Shown: positions 52,077-58,367 of the stretch, piece by piece
Position numbering within the stretch: the first letter of the stretch is position 1
How the letters are laid out: every line of letters begins with the position of its first letter
Assembly: GCA_000621425.1 (NCBI GenBank)
Contig: KK211275.1
Location: 598,523 to 662,522 of the forward strand
DNA length: 64,000 bases
Source: Lachnospiraceae bacterium AB2028
Lineage (GTDB): Bacteria > Bacillota > Clostridia > Lachnospirales > Lachnospiraceae
Reading direction: 5' to 3'
Position numbers and translations under genes: made by a program
The notes under the pieces: generated by a model
The model's input: the letters and a program-made list of their open reading frames with translations, nothing else
Told to the model about the DNA's origin: nothing
Databases searched by the model: none

Positions 52077-53027
52077 TTATCTTGCCCAGATGGTATCAAT
52101 ATATACAAGTCCTGTACTGGGATTAGCAAGATCGATCACTCTGCCCCAGTGTACGCTTGAATTATAGTTTGCCTCAGTAACCGTTACAGTATGTCCGTCA
52201 GCATGTACTTCTGTTATAACAACAGTATGCTGATCATTGTTGGTACGGGGGCTGTCACCTACATGCAGTACAGGAAGGTTATTCCAGGATGCAGGGATCT
52301 GAACGATAGGGCACTGATAGTCAGTTGCATACTCAAGCATATCCATCATGTATCCATAGCAGCCCATCCCAAGGAAATGTCCGGGACCATAGCCTTCGCA
52401 TGAAACAGTATTATAGTAATGTGTTCCATTCGTATAATATGTACCTTCGGTATATCCGGGAACATTCTTTCTTCCCATTATCTTGTTGTAGACATATTCT
52501 TCAGGAAGATATGTGCCTGCTGTTGTAAGCAGTCCGGTAGGCTGCGTTACTACTGTTGTTGATGATGAGCCGGCAGGACCTGCAGCATTAGGCCATCTTC
52601 CCTCTGCCTTTCCGCAAAGCAGATAATGCTGATAAAGAAGTGCAGGATCTGTTCCGAATGCTGCTTTTACATCGGCATATTTTGATGCATAAAATACAGG
52701 ATCAAATCCGTCTATATAACTGGATGATGCAGCAGTTGATGTTCCGGCAGGGCCTGCAGCATTGGGCCATCTTCCCTCTGCTTTTCCGCAGAGCAGATAG
52801 TGCTGATATAAAAGTGCAGGATCCGTTCCGAACGCTGCCCTTACATCAGGATACTGATTTGCATAGAAGACGGGATCAAAACCGTCTATGTAATTATCCC
52901 CACCACGAGCAACTACCCGCTCGTCTGCACCGGCATTATCAGCTGCCTGCACAGGCATAACAAGAAATGCTGACAGTGACAGAGCCAGCGCTGCCATTAC
53001 GATTTTCTTAAAAGATTTCAATGCCAT
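52077..53027 (-). CDS. Secreted CHAP-like cysteine peptidase/amidase with duplicated module
   Basis: A 316-residue exported protein. A signal peptide (residues 1-28, cut near VQAADN) is followed by two almost identical modules of about 58 residues (47-104 and 105-155) containing FDPVFYA, KYADVKAAFGTDPALLYQHY and GKAEGRWP, a pattern recurrent in Lachnospiraceae secreted proteins. The C-terminal domain (about 170-316) has Cys in GMGCYGYMMDML, His in DQHTVVITEV and Asn/Trp in ANYNSSVHWGR, the order of the CHAP/NlpC-type fold. Probably a peptidoglycan amidase or endopeptidase. At DNA level the repeats recur with a 174-base period (about 52570 and 52744). AGGAGG precedes the ATG. Confidence 0.83.
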   Translation of the reverse strand: MALKSFKKIVMAALALSLSAFLVMPVQAADNAGADERVVARGGDNYIDGFDPVFYANQYPDVRAAFGTDPALLYQHYLLCGKAEGRWPNAAGPAGTSTAASSSYIDGFDPVFYASKYADVKAAFGTDPALLYQHYLLCGKAEGRWPNAAGPAGSSSTTVVTQPTGLLTTAGTYLPEEYVYNKIMGRKNVPGYTEGTYYTNGTHYYNTVSCEGYGPGHFLGMGCYGYMMDMLEYATDYQCPIVQIPASWNNLPVLHVGDSPRTNNDQHTVVITEVHADGHTVTVTEANYNSSVHWGRVIDLANPSTGLVYIDTIWAR

Positions 53028-53116: not shown

Positions 53117-53142
53117 AATAAAAGCCGTCCGTTAAGACGGCT
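53117..53142 (-). terminator. Intrinsic terminator after tRNA-Thr
   Basis: On the minus strand AGCCGTC (53142-53136), a six-base loop and GACGGCT (53129-53123), then TTTATTA. It starts four bases after the tRNA 3' end. Confidence 0.88.
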
Positions 53143-53314: not shown

Positions 53315-54409
53315 TCAAGAGTTGTCCGCATCCTTGATATGCACATCCAGCTGATCAAAAGGAATCGCAACACCATTCTCATCAAAGCTCTTTTTCACAT
53401 GCTCTGTGAAATACCATTTAGCCTCGAAATAGTCTTCATTCTTAACGAAGGCCCTTACTCCAAGCGTGACAGCAGAAGAATCTAAGGACTCCACATATAC
53501 CTTCTTGGGAAGGTCATTAAGGATCAGTTCACATCCCCCAAGCACCTTCAATATAACCTCACGCGCCTTATCTATATCAGCATCGTACGCGATCCCCACC
53601 GTAAGAATTAGCTGACGCATAGGCGCCATGTTCACATTGATAAGTGATGTATTGGCAAGGGGACCATTGGGAAGTACCACAGTCCTTCCGTCCAGGGTAT
53701 GGAGCTTTGTATAAAAAAGCCCGATTTCCTTTACCACGCCCTCATTGCCGTTGTTATCCTCGTGGATATAGTCCCCAAGCTTAAATGGCTTTAGCAACAG
53801 TATAAGGACACCGCCGGTGATATTGGACAAACTTCCCTGTATTGCAAGAGCTATGGTAACACCGGCACTACCTAACAGCGCAACCAAACTGGTAGTTTCC
53901 ACACCAAAATACGATGCGATATAAATCAAAAGCAGCGCAAAAAGAGAAACCTTTACCAAAGAATCAATAAAGTGCCTTATGCTAAGGTCCACCCTTGCTT
54001 TTTCAAGGGATTTCCTAAGGATGATCCTTATGATCTTGATAAGGTAACATCCTCCAACCAGTATGATCAGTGCAAAGGTAGCTTTTATAGCAAAAGCCGT
54101 TGCCCTGGTAGGCAGTGTCTGCATAAACTGCTGAAATGCACTTAGGTTTTCCGTGATCTCAGCCACGCTTTCCGCAGCCGCCTCCGAGATTGTAGCAGCA
54201 TTAGAGGATGTGGTATCACAGGAAACAGAGTTCGCGGATACTGCATCAATACCTGCCGCAATATCAGAAGAAACACTTCCGGAACTTTCCGGTCCCCTGA
54301 AAAACCATCTCTGTCCTACGGCCACAGCTGCATTTGACGAAACGGACGCCGGTACATCACCGGCACCGAACAGTCCATCAAAAAAATTTATCAGATCATA
54401 AATGAACAT
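53315..54409 (-). CDS. mscS: MscS-family mechanosensitive channel
   Basis: Small-conductance mechanosensitive channel releasing solutes on hypo-osmotic shock. The 364-residue product has three membrane helices (about 102-128, 150-170 and 172-200), the pore helix with GSAGVTIALAIQGSLSNITGG, and the cytoplasmic beta domain with KLGDYI. Before the helices is an odd 90-residue Ser/Ala-rich N-terminal segment without similarity to known MscS. The ATG is three bases after the stop of the branching-enzyme-like gene, so the two are coupled, an unusual pairing. Confidence 0.92.
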   Translation of the reverse strand: MFIYDLINFFDGLFGAGDVPASVSSNAAVAVGQRWFFRGPESSGSVSSDIAAGIDAVSANSVSCDTTSSNAATISEAAAESVAEITENLSAFQQFMQTLPTRATAFAIKATFALIILVGGCYLIKIIRIILRKSLEKARVDLSIRHFIDSLVKVSLFALLLIYIASYFGVETTSLVALLGSAGVTIALAIQGSLSNITGGVLILLLKPFKLGDYIHEDNNGNEGVVKEIGLFYTKLHTLDGRTVVLPNGPLANTSLINVNMAPMRQLILTVGIAYDADIDKAREVILKVLGGCELILNDLPKKVYVESLDSSAVTLGVRAFVKNEDYFEAKWYFTEHVKKSFDENGVAIPFDQLDVHIKDADNS

Positions 54410-54412
54410 ATC

Positions 54413-56938
54413 TTACTTCTTCTTTTTCGTGCCTTTATACTCGCTGCCGGATGCGATCTTAGCCTCGGCCTCCGCGATCTTCTTTTCAAGCTCTGACTTA
54501 ATGTCTTCCCTGATCTTTTCCTTTGCGTCAGATATCATGAGTTTTTTCTGCTCTTCTTCCTTTTTGATCCTGATCTTTTCAGCCTTACGCTTCTCGATGA
54601 TGCCCTGTTCTTCCTTTGTATACGGAAGATAAGCAAATACCGATACAGACAAAGGCTTTAAGTGTACACAGATTGAATTATCGAAACCGTTGCACTTTTC
54701 ATCCCTTGCAAGGATCAGGTTAGGATTTGCGGACTCGCTTCCGCCATATGCCTCATCAGCTGAGCAGAGCATCTCCTGATACTTTCCGTCCTCGGGAACT
54801 CCGGTCTCATATTTCGGATAATCAACATTCGCAAAATTGAACAGCACAAGCAGTTCGTCGTTACCGTTCTTTCTCACGAACGAAAGCACATTGCTCTCTA
54901 TGGCGTTCTCGTCCACCCACTTGAATCCCTCTTCCGAAGTATCGGATGAAAGAGCCGGATGCTTTGTATAGAAACGGTTCAGATCCCTGATGAAATTCTT
55001 GAAATACTGCTGGCTCTCGCTGTATGTATTAAGGTCTATACGCTTGCCTGCATCAAAAGAATCTGATACGCCTATTTCCTGGCCCATAAATGTGGACATC
55101 TTTCCTACATGGAAAAGCTGATAAGCAAATAAAAGCTTTAAATTCTCCCACTTGGTAAGTTCGTCGCCGTTTACCCTGGAATACAGGCCGCCCTGACCGA
55201 AATCCAGATGTGAATGTGTCACGGGAAGTATGTAATTCTCACAGTACTGGTAGAGAGTGCTGTCAGTAAGCTCCTGATGATAATGCTTTCTCTCAATCGG
55301 ATCCTTGGAAAGGTAATCTGCCAGCTCATTGGTGAAATTAGGATCAGCCTTGTAATCAAAGCCAAGGGAAGTCTCGCCCTTGCCGGTAACAGTGCTGTAT
55401 CCGCTGGACTCTTCCGCAATGGTAAATATGCCATCGTTCATATCGTGAAGCATGCGGTTGGCTTCCTTAAGGAAATCAATTGTATCGAGATTCTCCACGC
55501 CGCCGTACATATTCGGCGTCCACTCACCGGGATTTCTGTAATAATCAAGATACAGCATTCCTGTAACATCTGAGAATACAAAAGCGTCGATATGATATGC
55601 TTCCGCCCAATATCTAAGGGATGACAGAAGGTATTCCCTTACCTCAGGACGCTTTTTATCAAATATGAACATACCTGTCCTGGGATCCATGCCCATACGG
55701 TAGTCGCCGTATTCATAGATGCTGGTTCCGTCATAGCCGCCAAGGCCGGACTCTATATTGCTGAAGTCAGTGATAGTCCACTGCATTATGACACCGATGC
55801 CTGCATTATGCATCTTATCTACAAATCGCTTATAGTCATCCGGCTTACCATAACGCCATGTAGGAGCAAAGAAAAGCGCCGGGTGGTAGCCGCAGGAATT
55901 ATCATCCGGATATTCCATAAAAGGCATAAGCGAAACATGGGAATAGCCCATATTCTTTACATACTTTGCAAGCCCATCAGCAAGCTCTGCAATATTTACA
56001 TTTTCACCTTCCGTGCCACAGGATGAAAGGGGCACTTCATAAATATTAAGGGGAATTGCTTTGTCCGAATCCTTTTCTCCCTGCTCCTTTGGAATGTATG
56101 CCGCCTTTTTGCGTTCCTTCATCCACTTTGCGTCATCCCAGTCATATGAGGACTCATAGGTAACCTGGCTTGCGCCGTCCCTCTTTGCCTCCTGCATAAA
56201 GCAGTAAGGATCAGCCTTCATGGTCTTTGCACCGCCGTGCATTACCACTTCAAATTTATAATTGTCCCCTTCTTCAATACCGGGAACAAAAAGCTCGAAT
56301 ATACCGCTGCGGTTACGCCTGTTCATGGGCGTTTCCAGGCCGTTCCACTCATTGAAATCACCCACAACGCTCACCCTAATAGCATTAGGTGCCCACACCC
56401 TGAACATACAGCCACGGACATTCTTTACGCTCTTTTTATGTGCGCCCATATAGAGATAGGTCTTATTGTCCGCACCGGATAAAAACCTGTCCTCGTCAGT
56501 CTCAGCAATTTCCTGACGGAAATTATAAATATCCCTGATATCCCTTATGCGGTACTTCTTGGGCTTTTTCTTTTTTAATGAAGAGGTCTTCTTTTCATCA
56601 GCATCATCCTCGGAATCGGATTCTCCCTTTTCTTCTTCTACGGGATATTCAATATGATACTTATAATCAAAACGGTCAATTCCGGGAAGGACCGCCGCAA
56701 AGAATCCGGTTTCGTCAGCCATTTCCATCTTTACTTCTTCCTTTACCGTCCTGCCCCTGGTGCCCTTTGTATCATCCACATAGACATACACATTTTCGGC
56801 TCCCGGAAAAAAACACTGAATAAGGGACTGCCTGCCCACATTGTGGGAGCCGAGAAATTCATCAGGTGCGTCACACTCACCGTATACCACTTCCTCGATC
56901 TTCGCCCAGTCCATCATGTTGTAAAGTTTCTTGTTCAT
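54413..56938 (-). CDS. Glycogen branching enzyme-like protein, predicted catalytically inactive
   Basis: An 841-residue GH13 homologue closest in pattern to GlgB. An N-terminal domain (1-100), an acidic/Lys-rich insert (102-128), a CBM48-like module (about 175-265) and the (beta/alpha)8 barrel (about 300-640) precede an all-beta C-domain. Barrel scaffolding matches GlgB (YEYGDYRMG, GMLYLDY, GGVENLDTIDFLKEANR, YCENYILPV), but active-site signatures are altered. Region I DWVPGHF is QWTITDF (386-392). Region II DALRVDAV is DAFVFSDV (451-458), losing the Arg (V454) and nucleophile Asp (S456). Region IV SHDEV is THSHL (574-578), losing the Asp. The acid Glu in IAEESS is kept. A glycan-binding or regulatory role is likely. 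Operon: DUF1015 upstream, mscS downstream. Confidence 0.88.
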   Translation of the reverse strand: MNKKLYNMMDWAKIEEVVYGECDAPDEFLGSHNVGRQSLIQCFFPGAENVYVYVDDTKGTRGRTVKEEVKMEMADETGFFAAVLPGIDRFDYKYHIEYPVEEEKGESDSEDDADEKKTSSLKKKKPKKYRIRDIRDIYNFRQEIAETDEDRFLSGADNKTYLYMGAHKKSVKNVRGCMFRVWAPNAIRVSVVGDFNEWNGLETPMNRRNRSGIFELFVPGIEEGDNYKFEVVMHGGAKTMKADPYCFMQEAKRDGASQVTYESSYDWDDAKWMKERKKAAYIPKEQGEKDSDKAIPLNIYEVPLSSCGTEGENVNIAELADGLAKYVKNMGYSHVSLMPFMEYPDDNSCGYHPALFFAPTWRYGKPDDYKRFVDKMHNAGIGVIMQWTITDFSNIESGLGGYDGTSIYEYGDYRMGMDPRTGMFIFDKKRPEVREYLLSSLRYWAEAYHIDAFVFSDVTGMLYLDYYRNPGEWTPNMYGGVENLDTIDFLKEANRMLHDMNDGIFTIAEESSGYSTVTGKGETSLGFDYKADPNFTNELADYLSKDPIERKHYHQELTDSTLYQYCENYILPVTHSHLDFGQGGLYSRVNGDELTKWENLKLLFAYQLFHVGKMSTFMGQEIGVSDSFDAGKRIDLNTYSESQQYFKNFIRDLNRFYTKHPALSSDTSEEGFKWVDENAIESNVLSFVRKNGNDELLVLFNFANVDYPKYETGVPEDGKYQEMLCSADEAYGGSESANPNLILARDEKCNGFDNSICVHLKPLSVSVFAYLPYTKEEQGIIEKRKAEKIRIKKEEEQKKLMISDAKEKIREDIKSELEKKIAEAEAKIASGSEYKGTKKKK

Positions 56939-56967: not shown

Positions 56968-58206
56968 TCAGATCAAATGTATAAATATACCGCTCCTAAG
57001 CTTCGGCTCAAACCAGGTGGATTTAGGCGGCATAAGCCTTCCTGCATCAGCCACAGCAAAAAGTTCAGCTATTGATGTGGGATACATTGAAAATGCAAGG
57101 CCGTTATCAAAACCGTCAGCCCTGGTCTTAAGCTCATCCAGACCCCTTATTCCGCCAACAAACTCTATACGGTTATCGGTCTTGGGATCCTTTATTCCAA
57201 GGATGTCATCCAGGACATATTTCTGAAGGATTGCAACATCCAGACCGTCCACGGGATCATTACTCCTGTACTCATCCTTTATGGTAATGCTATACCACTT
57301 GCCTGCAAGGTACATTCCAAAATTCCCCTTTGCCACAGGCTTGTATGCGCTGTCAGCCGGCTCACCGATTTCAAAGAATCCTGCCATCTTATCCATGAAC
57401 TGGTCTGCATTAAGACCGTTTAAGTCATGGACAACCCTGTTATAGTCCATGATCATCAGCTCCTTATCAGGAAAGATAACAGACATGAAGAAATTAAACT
57501 CTTCATCTCCGGTATATCCGGGATTCTCAGCCCTGCGCTTAAGTCCTACCTTAACTGCAGATGCGCATCTGTGGTGTCCGTCAGCGATATAGATAGAATC
57601 AATGCCTGCAAAAGCTTCGCCTATAGCCTTGATATCAGCATCATTGTCTATGATAAACACACGATGTCTGATACCGTCATCAGAAACGAAATCATAAAGT
57701 GCTTCGTTTTTCTTGGTTCTTTCAACAACCTCGTTTATCACAGCATTCTCACGGTATGCAAGGAATATAGGGCCGGTCTGTGCAGAGCAGGTGTCCACAT
57801 GGCGTATCCTGTCTTCTTCCTTGTCAGCCCTTGTATTCTCGTGCTTCTTTATAACTGCATTCTGGTAATCATCAATGGATGCGCAGGCAGCAATGCCTGT
57901 CTGTGTACGGCCGTCCATTGTAAGCTCATAGATATAATAAACAGCCTTTTCTTCCTGTATAAAACGTCCATCTGTGATGCGTTCCTTAAGCATCTCGGAT
58001 GCCTTTGCGTATACTTCGGGAGCGTATGTATCCACGCTGTCGTCAAACTGTGTTTCAGCCCTGTCGATTGCTAAGAAAGATTCGGGATTCGCATCCACGA
58101 CAACCTTAGCCTCTTTCCTGCTGTATACGTCATAAGGAAGGGCTGCTATTTTGCTTTCCATTCCCTTTCCCGGTCTAACTGCCTTAAACGGTCTGATGAT
58201 TGCCAT
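56968..58206 (-). CDS. DUF1015 family protein
   Basis: A 412-residue cytoplasmic protein of unknown biochemical role. It has the family opening IRPFKAVRPGKG and AALPYDVYSRKEA, and the conserved YIADGHHRCASAVKVG motif near residue 210, whose Asp-Gly-His-His-Arg suggests a metal or phosphate site. In Clostridia this family commonly sits beside serA and serC, as here, which suggests a link with serine metabolism. GGAGG precedes the ATG. A terminator and a promoter separate it from serA, so it heads a unit with the branching-enzyme-like and mscS genes. Confidence 0.9.
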   Translation of the reverse strand: MAIIRPFKAVRPGKGMESKIAALPYDVYSRKEAKVVVDANPESFLAIDRAETQFDDSVDTYAPEVYAKASEMLKERITDGRFIQEEKAVYYIYELTMDGRTQTGIAACASIDDYQNAVIKKHENTRADKEEDRIRHVDTCSAQTGPIFLAYRENAVINEVVERTKKNEALYDFVSDDGIRHRVFIIDNDADIKAIGEAFAGIDSIYIADGHHRCASAVKVGLKRRAENPGYTGDEEFNFFMSVIFPDKELMIMDYNRVVHDLNGLNADQFMDKMAGFFEIGEPADSAYKPVAKGNFGMYLAGKWYSITIKDEYRSNDPVDGLDVAILQKYVLDDILGIKDPKTDNRIEFVGGIRGLDELKTRADGFDNGLAFSMYPTSIAELFAVADAGRLMPPKSTWFEPKLRSGIFIHLI

Positions 58207-58336: not shown

Positions 58337-58367
58337 CAAAATAAGGCCGGCTAACAGCCGACCTTAT
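58337..58367 (-). terminator. Intrinsic terminator after serA
   Basis: On the minus strand ATAAGGTCGGCT (58367-58356), a three-base loop and AGCCGGCCTTAT (58352-58341) with one G-T wobble, followed by TTTTG. Ends the serC-serA unit. Confidence 0.88.

Follow-up and report, generated by a model that had tools for sequence, protein, structure and literature searches.

The question raised by this locus is why a bacterium would keep an intact gene for a glycogen branching enzyme (GlgB) whose catalytic centre has been erased. The gene lies on the minus strand, at 54413..56938, of the window, the 64,000-nucleotide stretch of DNA from Lachnospiraceae bacterium AB2028 that was analysed. It comprises 841 codons and a stop, contains no internal stop and carries AGAAGGGG upstream of its ATG, so that the intact frame and good ribosome signals noted in a preliminary description are confirmed. 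The barrel scaffold of GlgB, proposed in the same description, is likewise recovered: the product, called here pseudo-GlgB, matches Pfam GlgB_N, CBM48, Alpha-amylase and Alpha-amylase_C, scores above the cut-off of TIGR01515 and has GlgB profiles as its best matches. It thus has the domain set of GlgB (GH13_9), and in an AlphaFold2 model, as in the structural matches, the CBM48, barrel and C domains are predicted to fold intact. Its architecture of N1 plus CBM48 is that described for 'Type 1' GlgB in the relevant passage of PMC6339891. The N1 domain (GlgB_N, PF22019; residues 1-104, 56627..56938), which in the dead groups described below changes more slowly than the barrel, is followed on the same strand by the CBM48 (PF02922; residues 164-245, 56204..56449), whose Trp198 corresponds to E. 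coli W159 of glucan site IV, and by the (beta/alpha)8 barrel, placed by the model and the structural matches at about residues 296-660 (54959..56053). A C-terminal beta domain (PF02806; residues 674-769, 54632..54919) begins with Trp674, the equivalent of E. coli W628 of glucan site VI, and the protein ends in a charged tail (residues 770-841, 54416..54631) modelled as a single long helix from 775 to 829.

We take the catalytic residues of E. coli GlgB, each with its accepted role, to be Y300, D335, H340, R403, D405, E458, H525 and D526, and in the alignment these fall within the expected motifs. Against the K-12 protein, pseudo-GlgB has exchanged D335 for Q386 and H340 for D391 in the former region I (MQWTITDF, residues 385-392, 55763..55786), R403 for V454 and the nucleophile D405 for S456 in the former region II (DAFVFSDVTGMLY, residues 451-463, 55550..55588), and D526, the third catalytic Asp, for Ser576 (55211..55213); only E458, the general acid/base (Glu509, 55412..55414), and H525 (His575) are kept. 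All seven residues are present in the same alignment in 28 active long copies, five short, five mid and three third-type copies. The replacements listed in the preliminary description (nucleophile Asp, neighbouring Arg, region IV Asp, region I signature) therefore stand; its statement that the general-acid Glu is kept is true of the window copy and does not hold generally, as only 14 of the 33 genus copies, and none of the 58 from Butyrivibrio, have this Glu. Because the aligned motif segments are equal in length in the window long copy and in the short GlgB of the same genome, Asp457 stands one place past the nucleophile position and not in it. Asp457 was also considered as a displaced nucleophile and set aside on the aligned residues, the motif being as long as in active copies, the acid/base varying and the third Asp being gone throughout the genus. 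Compared with bacterial GlgB as known, the protein thus differs in its nucleophile, third Asp, region I Asp and His, and Arg, and in a charged C-terminal segment predicted to be helical. On these aligned residues we firmly regard pseudo-GlgB as a conserved pseudoenzyme for which branching by the known mechanism would be impossible.

The same loss recurs across Lachnospiraceae genomes. Among 35 genomes searched from the window genus, the long copy was found in 33, the exceptions being two incomplete assemblies (G004, 67% complete; G021, 81%), and all 33 copies lack both the nucleophile Asp and the third Asp. The Arg of the R403 position and the His of region I are missing from all of them, the region I Asp survives in a single copy, 17 retain the His that precedes the third Asp position, and the replacing residues vary from species to species. 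The second group is Butyrivibrio, named through a 100% match of one of its genomes (G557) to a protein of Butyrivibrio sp. LC3010. The long copy is present in 58 of 61 genomes drawn from this genus, the other three being 60-72% complete, and the nucleophile Asp is found in 0/58 (Ser in 36, Ala in 10, Pro in eight, Thr in four); the acid/base position holds Lys in 52 and Arg in six, and the third Asp position Glu in 53 and Asp in five. A named scan gave 274 confirmed loci, and among the best 80 of these, the set of seven catalytic residues is complete in 46 long GlgBs and incomplete in 34, namely 29 of the window group, L189, L214 (Butyrivibrio sp. LC3010) and the three copies L178, L196 and L216. 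At least two groups of rumen bacteria hence hold an intact gene for a GlgB with an erased catalytic centre, usually beside a working copy. A search of 72,556 plasmid records gave 940 matches to the protein, all below 60% identity, and the five matches listed are annotated as GlgB, from Azospirillum and Rhizobium. The copies L178, L196 and L216, which keep the nucleophile and acid/base and have the third Asp replaced by His and the region I His by Gln, form a separate group that possibly represents an intermediate stage of loss.

As to descent, trees from which the motif columns were excluded join the dead copies of the window genus in one group that nests inside the active long GlgBs, with a support of 100 in a quick tree and of 100/100 in a careful one. 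At least three changes of state are needed on the 64-row tree to separate dead or part-dead copies from all others: one in the window genus and Butyrivibrio jointly, one in L189 and one in the group of L178, L196 and L216. The union of the window genus and Butyrivibrio as sisters is weakly supported (84/64), so that four losses are possible and a single origin of the dead state in these two genera is tentative. The dN/dS of the dead copies is 0.029-0.098 (Nei-Gojobori, 13 pairs), comparable to that of the neighbouring mscS (0.030-0.081) and DUF1015 (0-0.092) where these genes were found, ratios that are rough because several pairs have dS above 1. The sequences thus show a protein that descends from an active, N1-bearing Lachnospiraceae GlgB, has lost the nucleophile and third Asp, and has kept its frame under purifying selection.

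A second, intact GlgB, which the preliminary description had suggested looking for, is indeed present in the window genome: a short GlgB of 650 aa (L061) with intact motifs adjoins a glycogen phosphorylase gene, and a third GlgB-like copy, GlgX and the glycogen synthase GlgA are also encoded. The third copy (L062, G000:C6:12586-14175, 625 aa) has intact motifs of a divergent type, and two genes near it, of 569 and 590 aa, cluster with each other. The five short copies mapped on E. coli GlgB have seven of seven catalytic residues. A whole second GlgB with all four motifs was found in eight of 11 genomes with a dead or part-dead long copy; in the other three it is in pieces at contig ends (G330, G334) or split over two frames (G339). 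The split copy (L238, G339:C88:5933-7799) may reflect an assembly error in this metagenome-assembled genome. No short-GlgB match was found in G020, a 72% complete genome of the window genus with a dead copy. Whole or in pieces, the second copy occurs in 20 of the 20 genomes searched, and genomes with an active long copy have one too; its presence is therefore uninformative on which lineages lost catalysis and was rejected as the explanation. Redundancy was open to all lineages, whether their long copy is dead or active.

What selection has kept may be read from the distribution of constraint. Mean pairwise column identity in the dead genus and in live copies is 0.64 versus 0.49 for N1, 0.43 versus 0.22 for the tail and 0.46 versus 0.73 for the barrel, and the N1-barrel and tail-barrel contrasts were reached in 0 of 10000 permutations. 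Because the groups are of unequal depth, each pair was also compared by its distances; the dead genus has a median N1/barrel ratio of 0.70 (136 pairs), Butyrivibrio one of 0.87 (1634), the part-dead copies one of 1.38 (3) and the live set of 28 active relatives one of 1.86 (378), the pairs being non-independent. Constraint is thus inverted where catalysis died, the N-terminal domain now changing more slowly than the barrel, and at 65 of the 209 sites invariant in active relatives, catalytic motifs included, half or more of the genus representatives carry another residue. The relevant passage of a study of octaose-bound E. coli GlgB describes twelve glucan sites and reports reduced activity upon mutation of site I, IV, VI or VII (PMC10254366); the surface-site residues were taken from its Table 1. 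Among the 17 genus representatives and the 58 Butyrivibrio copies, the Trp of site IV is kept in 13 and 55, respectively, and that of site VI in all. Representative residues of sites I, VIII and XII are lost in the genus representatives, and the site I column is a gap in all 30 Butyrivibrio copies examined. Retention of the two tryptophans fits glucan binding without catalysis, although demands of folding may also have kept Trp198 and Trp674, and N1 and the tail could owe their raised conservation to a function that has nothing to do with glycogen.

The reading that we favour, with a confidence little better than even, draws on the analogy with plant ISA2: pseudo-GlgB would be a non-catalytic, glycogen-binding paralogue of GlgB that serves as a scaffold or regulator, and so the bacterial counterpart of that plant protein. 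Under the proposed mechanism, a GlgB paralogue lost its catalytic residues and selection retained the gene; the protein would bind alpha-glucan through its CBM48 and C-terminal surface site, N1 and the long C-terminal helix would attach it to a partner, for which the candidates are the active GlgB, glycogen synthase, a further pseudo-GlgB molecule and, where it occurs, MscS, and the resulting assembly would shape or localise glycogen as ISA2 does with ISA1. A glucan-binding or regulatory role had already been put forward in the preliminary description, and it gains support in the sequence from the mostly kept W159 and W628 equivalents and from the raised constraint on the N-terminal domain.

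ISA2 is described in the relevant part of PMC12510319 as a noncatalytic GH13 paralogue that is retained and has an extra N-terminal beta domain. Like it, pseudo-GlgB is a GH13 paralogue that has no nucleophile, changes faster in sequence and is kept by selection beside an active paralogue, and in both an N-terminal beta-sandwich domain precedes the CBM48 (PMC12510319). Features of such a case that were found here are loss of the catalytic residues, selection on the gene and a paralogue with intact motifs in the genome. By the same account, ISA2 differs in having a debranching enzyme (GH13_11) as its ancestor and ISA1 as its binding partner, whereas pseudo-GlgB has a branching enzyme as parent, only candidate partners and an N1 inherited from active GlgB. 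Identity with ISA2 proper, that is, descent from a GH13_11 isoamylase, was rejected, as the protein nests within long GlgB and has GlgB as its best profile match. Another bacterial GlgB domain reported as non-functional, again with a second GlgB that is thought to branch, is that of the Waddlia GlgA-GlgB fusion, although there the authors, in the passage concerned, blame the fused N-terminal synthase and not a loss of catalytic residues (PMC7935935). Butyrivibrio hungatei MB2003 carries, according to the relevant section of PMC5716241, a glgB2 (bhn_I1458, 824 aa) annotated as branching enzyme together with a 663-aa glgB1; its length, and the genus in which 58 of 58 long copies have no nucleophile, suggest that glgB2 is of the dead type. 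A Butyrivibrio fibrisolvens glgB, which may be either the long or the short copy, was reported active in 1991, as cited in a passage of PMC9960391. A review table notes some archaea with 'one inactive isoform' (PMC11046441), a likeness limited to an isoform being called inactive, since that passage states neither family nor reason. Among the matches listed from openly licensed PMC papers, no title or abstract describes a GlgB with lost catalytic residues.

Other explanations start from the neighbouring genes or from what is left of the barrel. The gene for a mechanosensitive channel, mscS (53315..54409, minus strand; Pfam MS_channel domains), lies three bases downstream of the pseudo-GlgB stop, and the protein could tether or sense glycogen beside this MscS of the same operon, tying the state of the reserve to turgor. 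We consider this osmotic coupling unlikely, even though mscS directly follows the long GlgB at 65 of the best 80 of 274 loci, the DUF1015, GlgB and MscS genes stay joined in two gene contexts, and the tail, which forms a long helix in the model, carries a short motif in 28 of 29 dead-genus loci (9/46 live, 0/3 part-dead and 1/2 other dead loci, among the same best 80 of 274). The pairing is also found beside active copies (37/46 live, 24/29 dead-genus, 3/3 part-dead and 1/2 other dead loci, two of the nine live loci that have no mscS leaving no room downstream to judge) and therefore does not explain the catalytic loss. Moreover, five dead-genus loci, which form one subclade with a common motif type, keep the dead gene without mscS, and the five genomes of this type that were searched hold only a distant MscS (27-29% identity) in four cases and none in one. 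In Butyrivibrio mscS was found downstream at 10 of the 30 loci; among the 20 without it one offers no room, so that it is absent at 19 of the 29 loci with room to judge. No mscS was found within the 1389-1557 bases downstream of each of 16 long copies from other families, one of which (L265) is missing the AEES string in the motif check. The link with mscS first seen in the window thus stands as a three-base gap and an old arrangement of Lachnospiraceae, and fails as a necessary one, given its absence at 5/29 dead-genus and 19/29 Butyrivibrio loci: it is old but dispensable. At three loci (L193, L198, L219) a His-rich frame of 123-169 aa with HTHTHVG-type repeats replaces mscS after an active long GlgB.

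Distinctly unlikely, in our estimation, is that the barrel was remodelled to bind a new ligand or perform new chemistry through Asp/Glu457, with Lys/Arg509 in Butyrivibrio and Asp/Glu418 and Tyr467 in the window genus. Position 457 is Ala in all 28 active representatives and acidic in every nucleophile-less copy (L141-L168, L175, L189, L214 and the Butyrivibrio copies), with Asp in 28 and Glu in five of the 33 from the window genus and Asp in 58/58 from Butyrivibrio and in L189, which sits apart from both genera in the trees and lost its nucleophile separately; it is Ser or Cys in the nucleophile-keeping L178, L196 and L216. Tyr467 and an acidic residue (Asp/Glu) at 418 are found in 17/17 genus representatives, and the former pocket is partly conserved in Butyrivibrio, with Arg at the R403 position, Asp457 and a basic residue at 509, each in 58/58. 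A plain scaffold would need neither the acidic 457 nor this conservation, which therefore count against the favoured explanation and are the main results at odds with it. Against a new pocket, 418 and 467 differ in Butyrivibrio, the remaining pocket positions vary widely in the window genus, the barrel has lost most of its constraint, and Asp457, which lies immediately N-terminal to helix 458-462 in the AlphaFold2 model, could simply cap it; the acidic residue may thus be a helix cap or part of a new pocket. It is still less probable that the dead copy acts as an inhibitor, competing with the intact GlgB for chains and so limiting branching: the co-occurring second GlgB and the two mostly kept glucan surface residues would allow it, but the replacement of 65 of 209 active-invariant sites, catalytic motifs among them, makes capture of a donor chain in the old cleft doubtful. 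That the gene is a decaying pseudogene or an assembly error, for which the loss of catalytic residues is the only argument, is a negligible prospect, ruled out by full frames, purifying selection (dN/dS 0.03-0.10) and the same state across many genomes of two genera; the preliminary description, too, had held that it is no decaying pseudogene.

A further scenario, possible if well short of probable, is that the long GlgB of Lachnospiraceae had a second, non-catalytic task before catalysis was lost. Branching being left to a short GlgB, the chemistry would then have been dropped, and the task retained, in at least three lineages; in the two rumen genera the protein would have become a dedicated glycogen scaffold, whose remodelled pocket (acidic 457, and a basic residue at the acid/base place in Butyrivibrio) senses a ligand and passes the state of the reserve to a partner, originally MscS. 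Returning to the scaffold or regulator favoured above, if its role is ISA2-like then noncatalytic control of alpha-glucan structure extends beyond plants. The repeated and independent loss of catalysis with the rest kept parts the binding and architecture of GlgB from its chemistry and provides a natural experiment on the function of N1. Automatic counts of carbohydrate genes would be inflated by a copy unable to use the known mechanism, because TIGR01515 places pseudo-GlgB above its cut-off and calls it a branching enzyme.

The upstream side of the locus is less constant. The DUF1015 gene (56968..58206, minus strand; PF06245) ends 29 bases before the pseudo-GlgB start, and DUF1015 was picked directly upstream of the long GlgB in 25 of 29 genus stretches, in two wider gene contexts; no solved relative of it was found at E up to 1. 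In 14 of the 29 (L104-L116, L129) the upstream context consists of genes other than serC-serA; of these stretches, 10 have DUF1015 picked there and four an opposite-strand frame that is probably a gene-picking fault. In L123-L125 serA and serC were not seen; in L124 and L125 the gene lies close to a contig end. Because of these 14 stretches, the link to serine metabolism drawn in the preliminary description is weak, and a serine-operon role was set aside as the core of the function; among openly licensed PMC papers none was found that joins 'DUF1015' and 'serine'. The long GlgB of L104-L116 and L129, in most cases accompanied by DUF1015 and MscS, stands in its other context as if relocated as a unit, often behind a frame of 1186 aa. 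Terminator-like hairpins, by pattern match only, follow mscS (53123..53142, minus strand) and lie between serA and DUF1015 (58345..58359, minus strand), in a region with 11 terminator-like patterns versus 5.6 in shuffles and 21 promoter-like patterns versus 19.2. Elsewhere in the window, a protein of 316 aa encoded at 52077-53027, for which no match was found in Pfam or NCBIfam, has a signal-like N-terminus and two near-identical stretches of about 45 residues.
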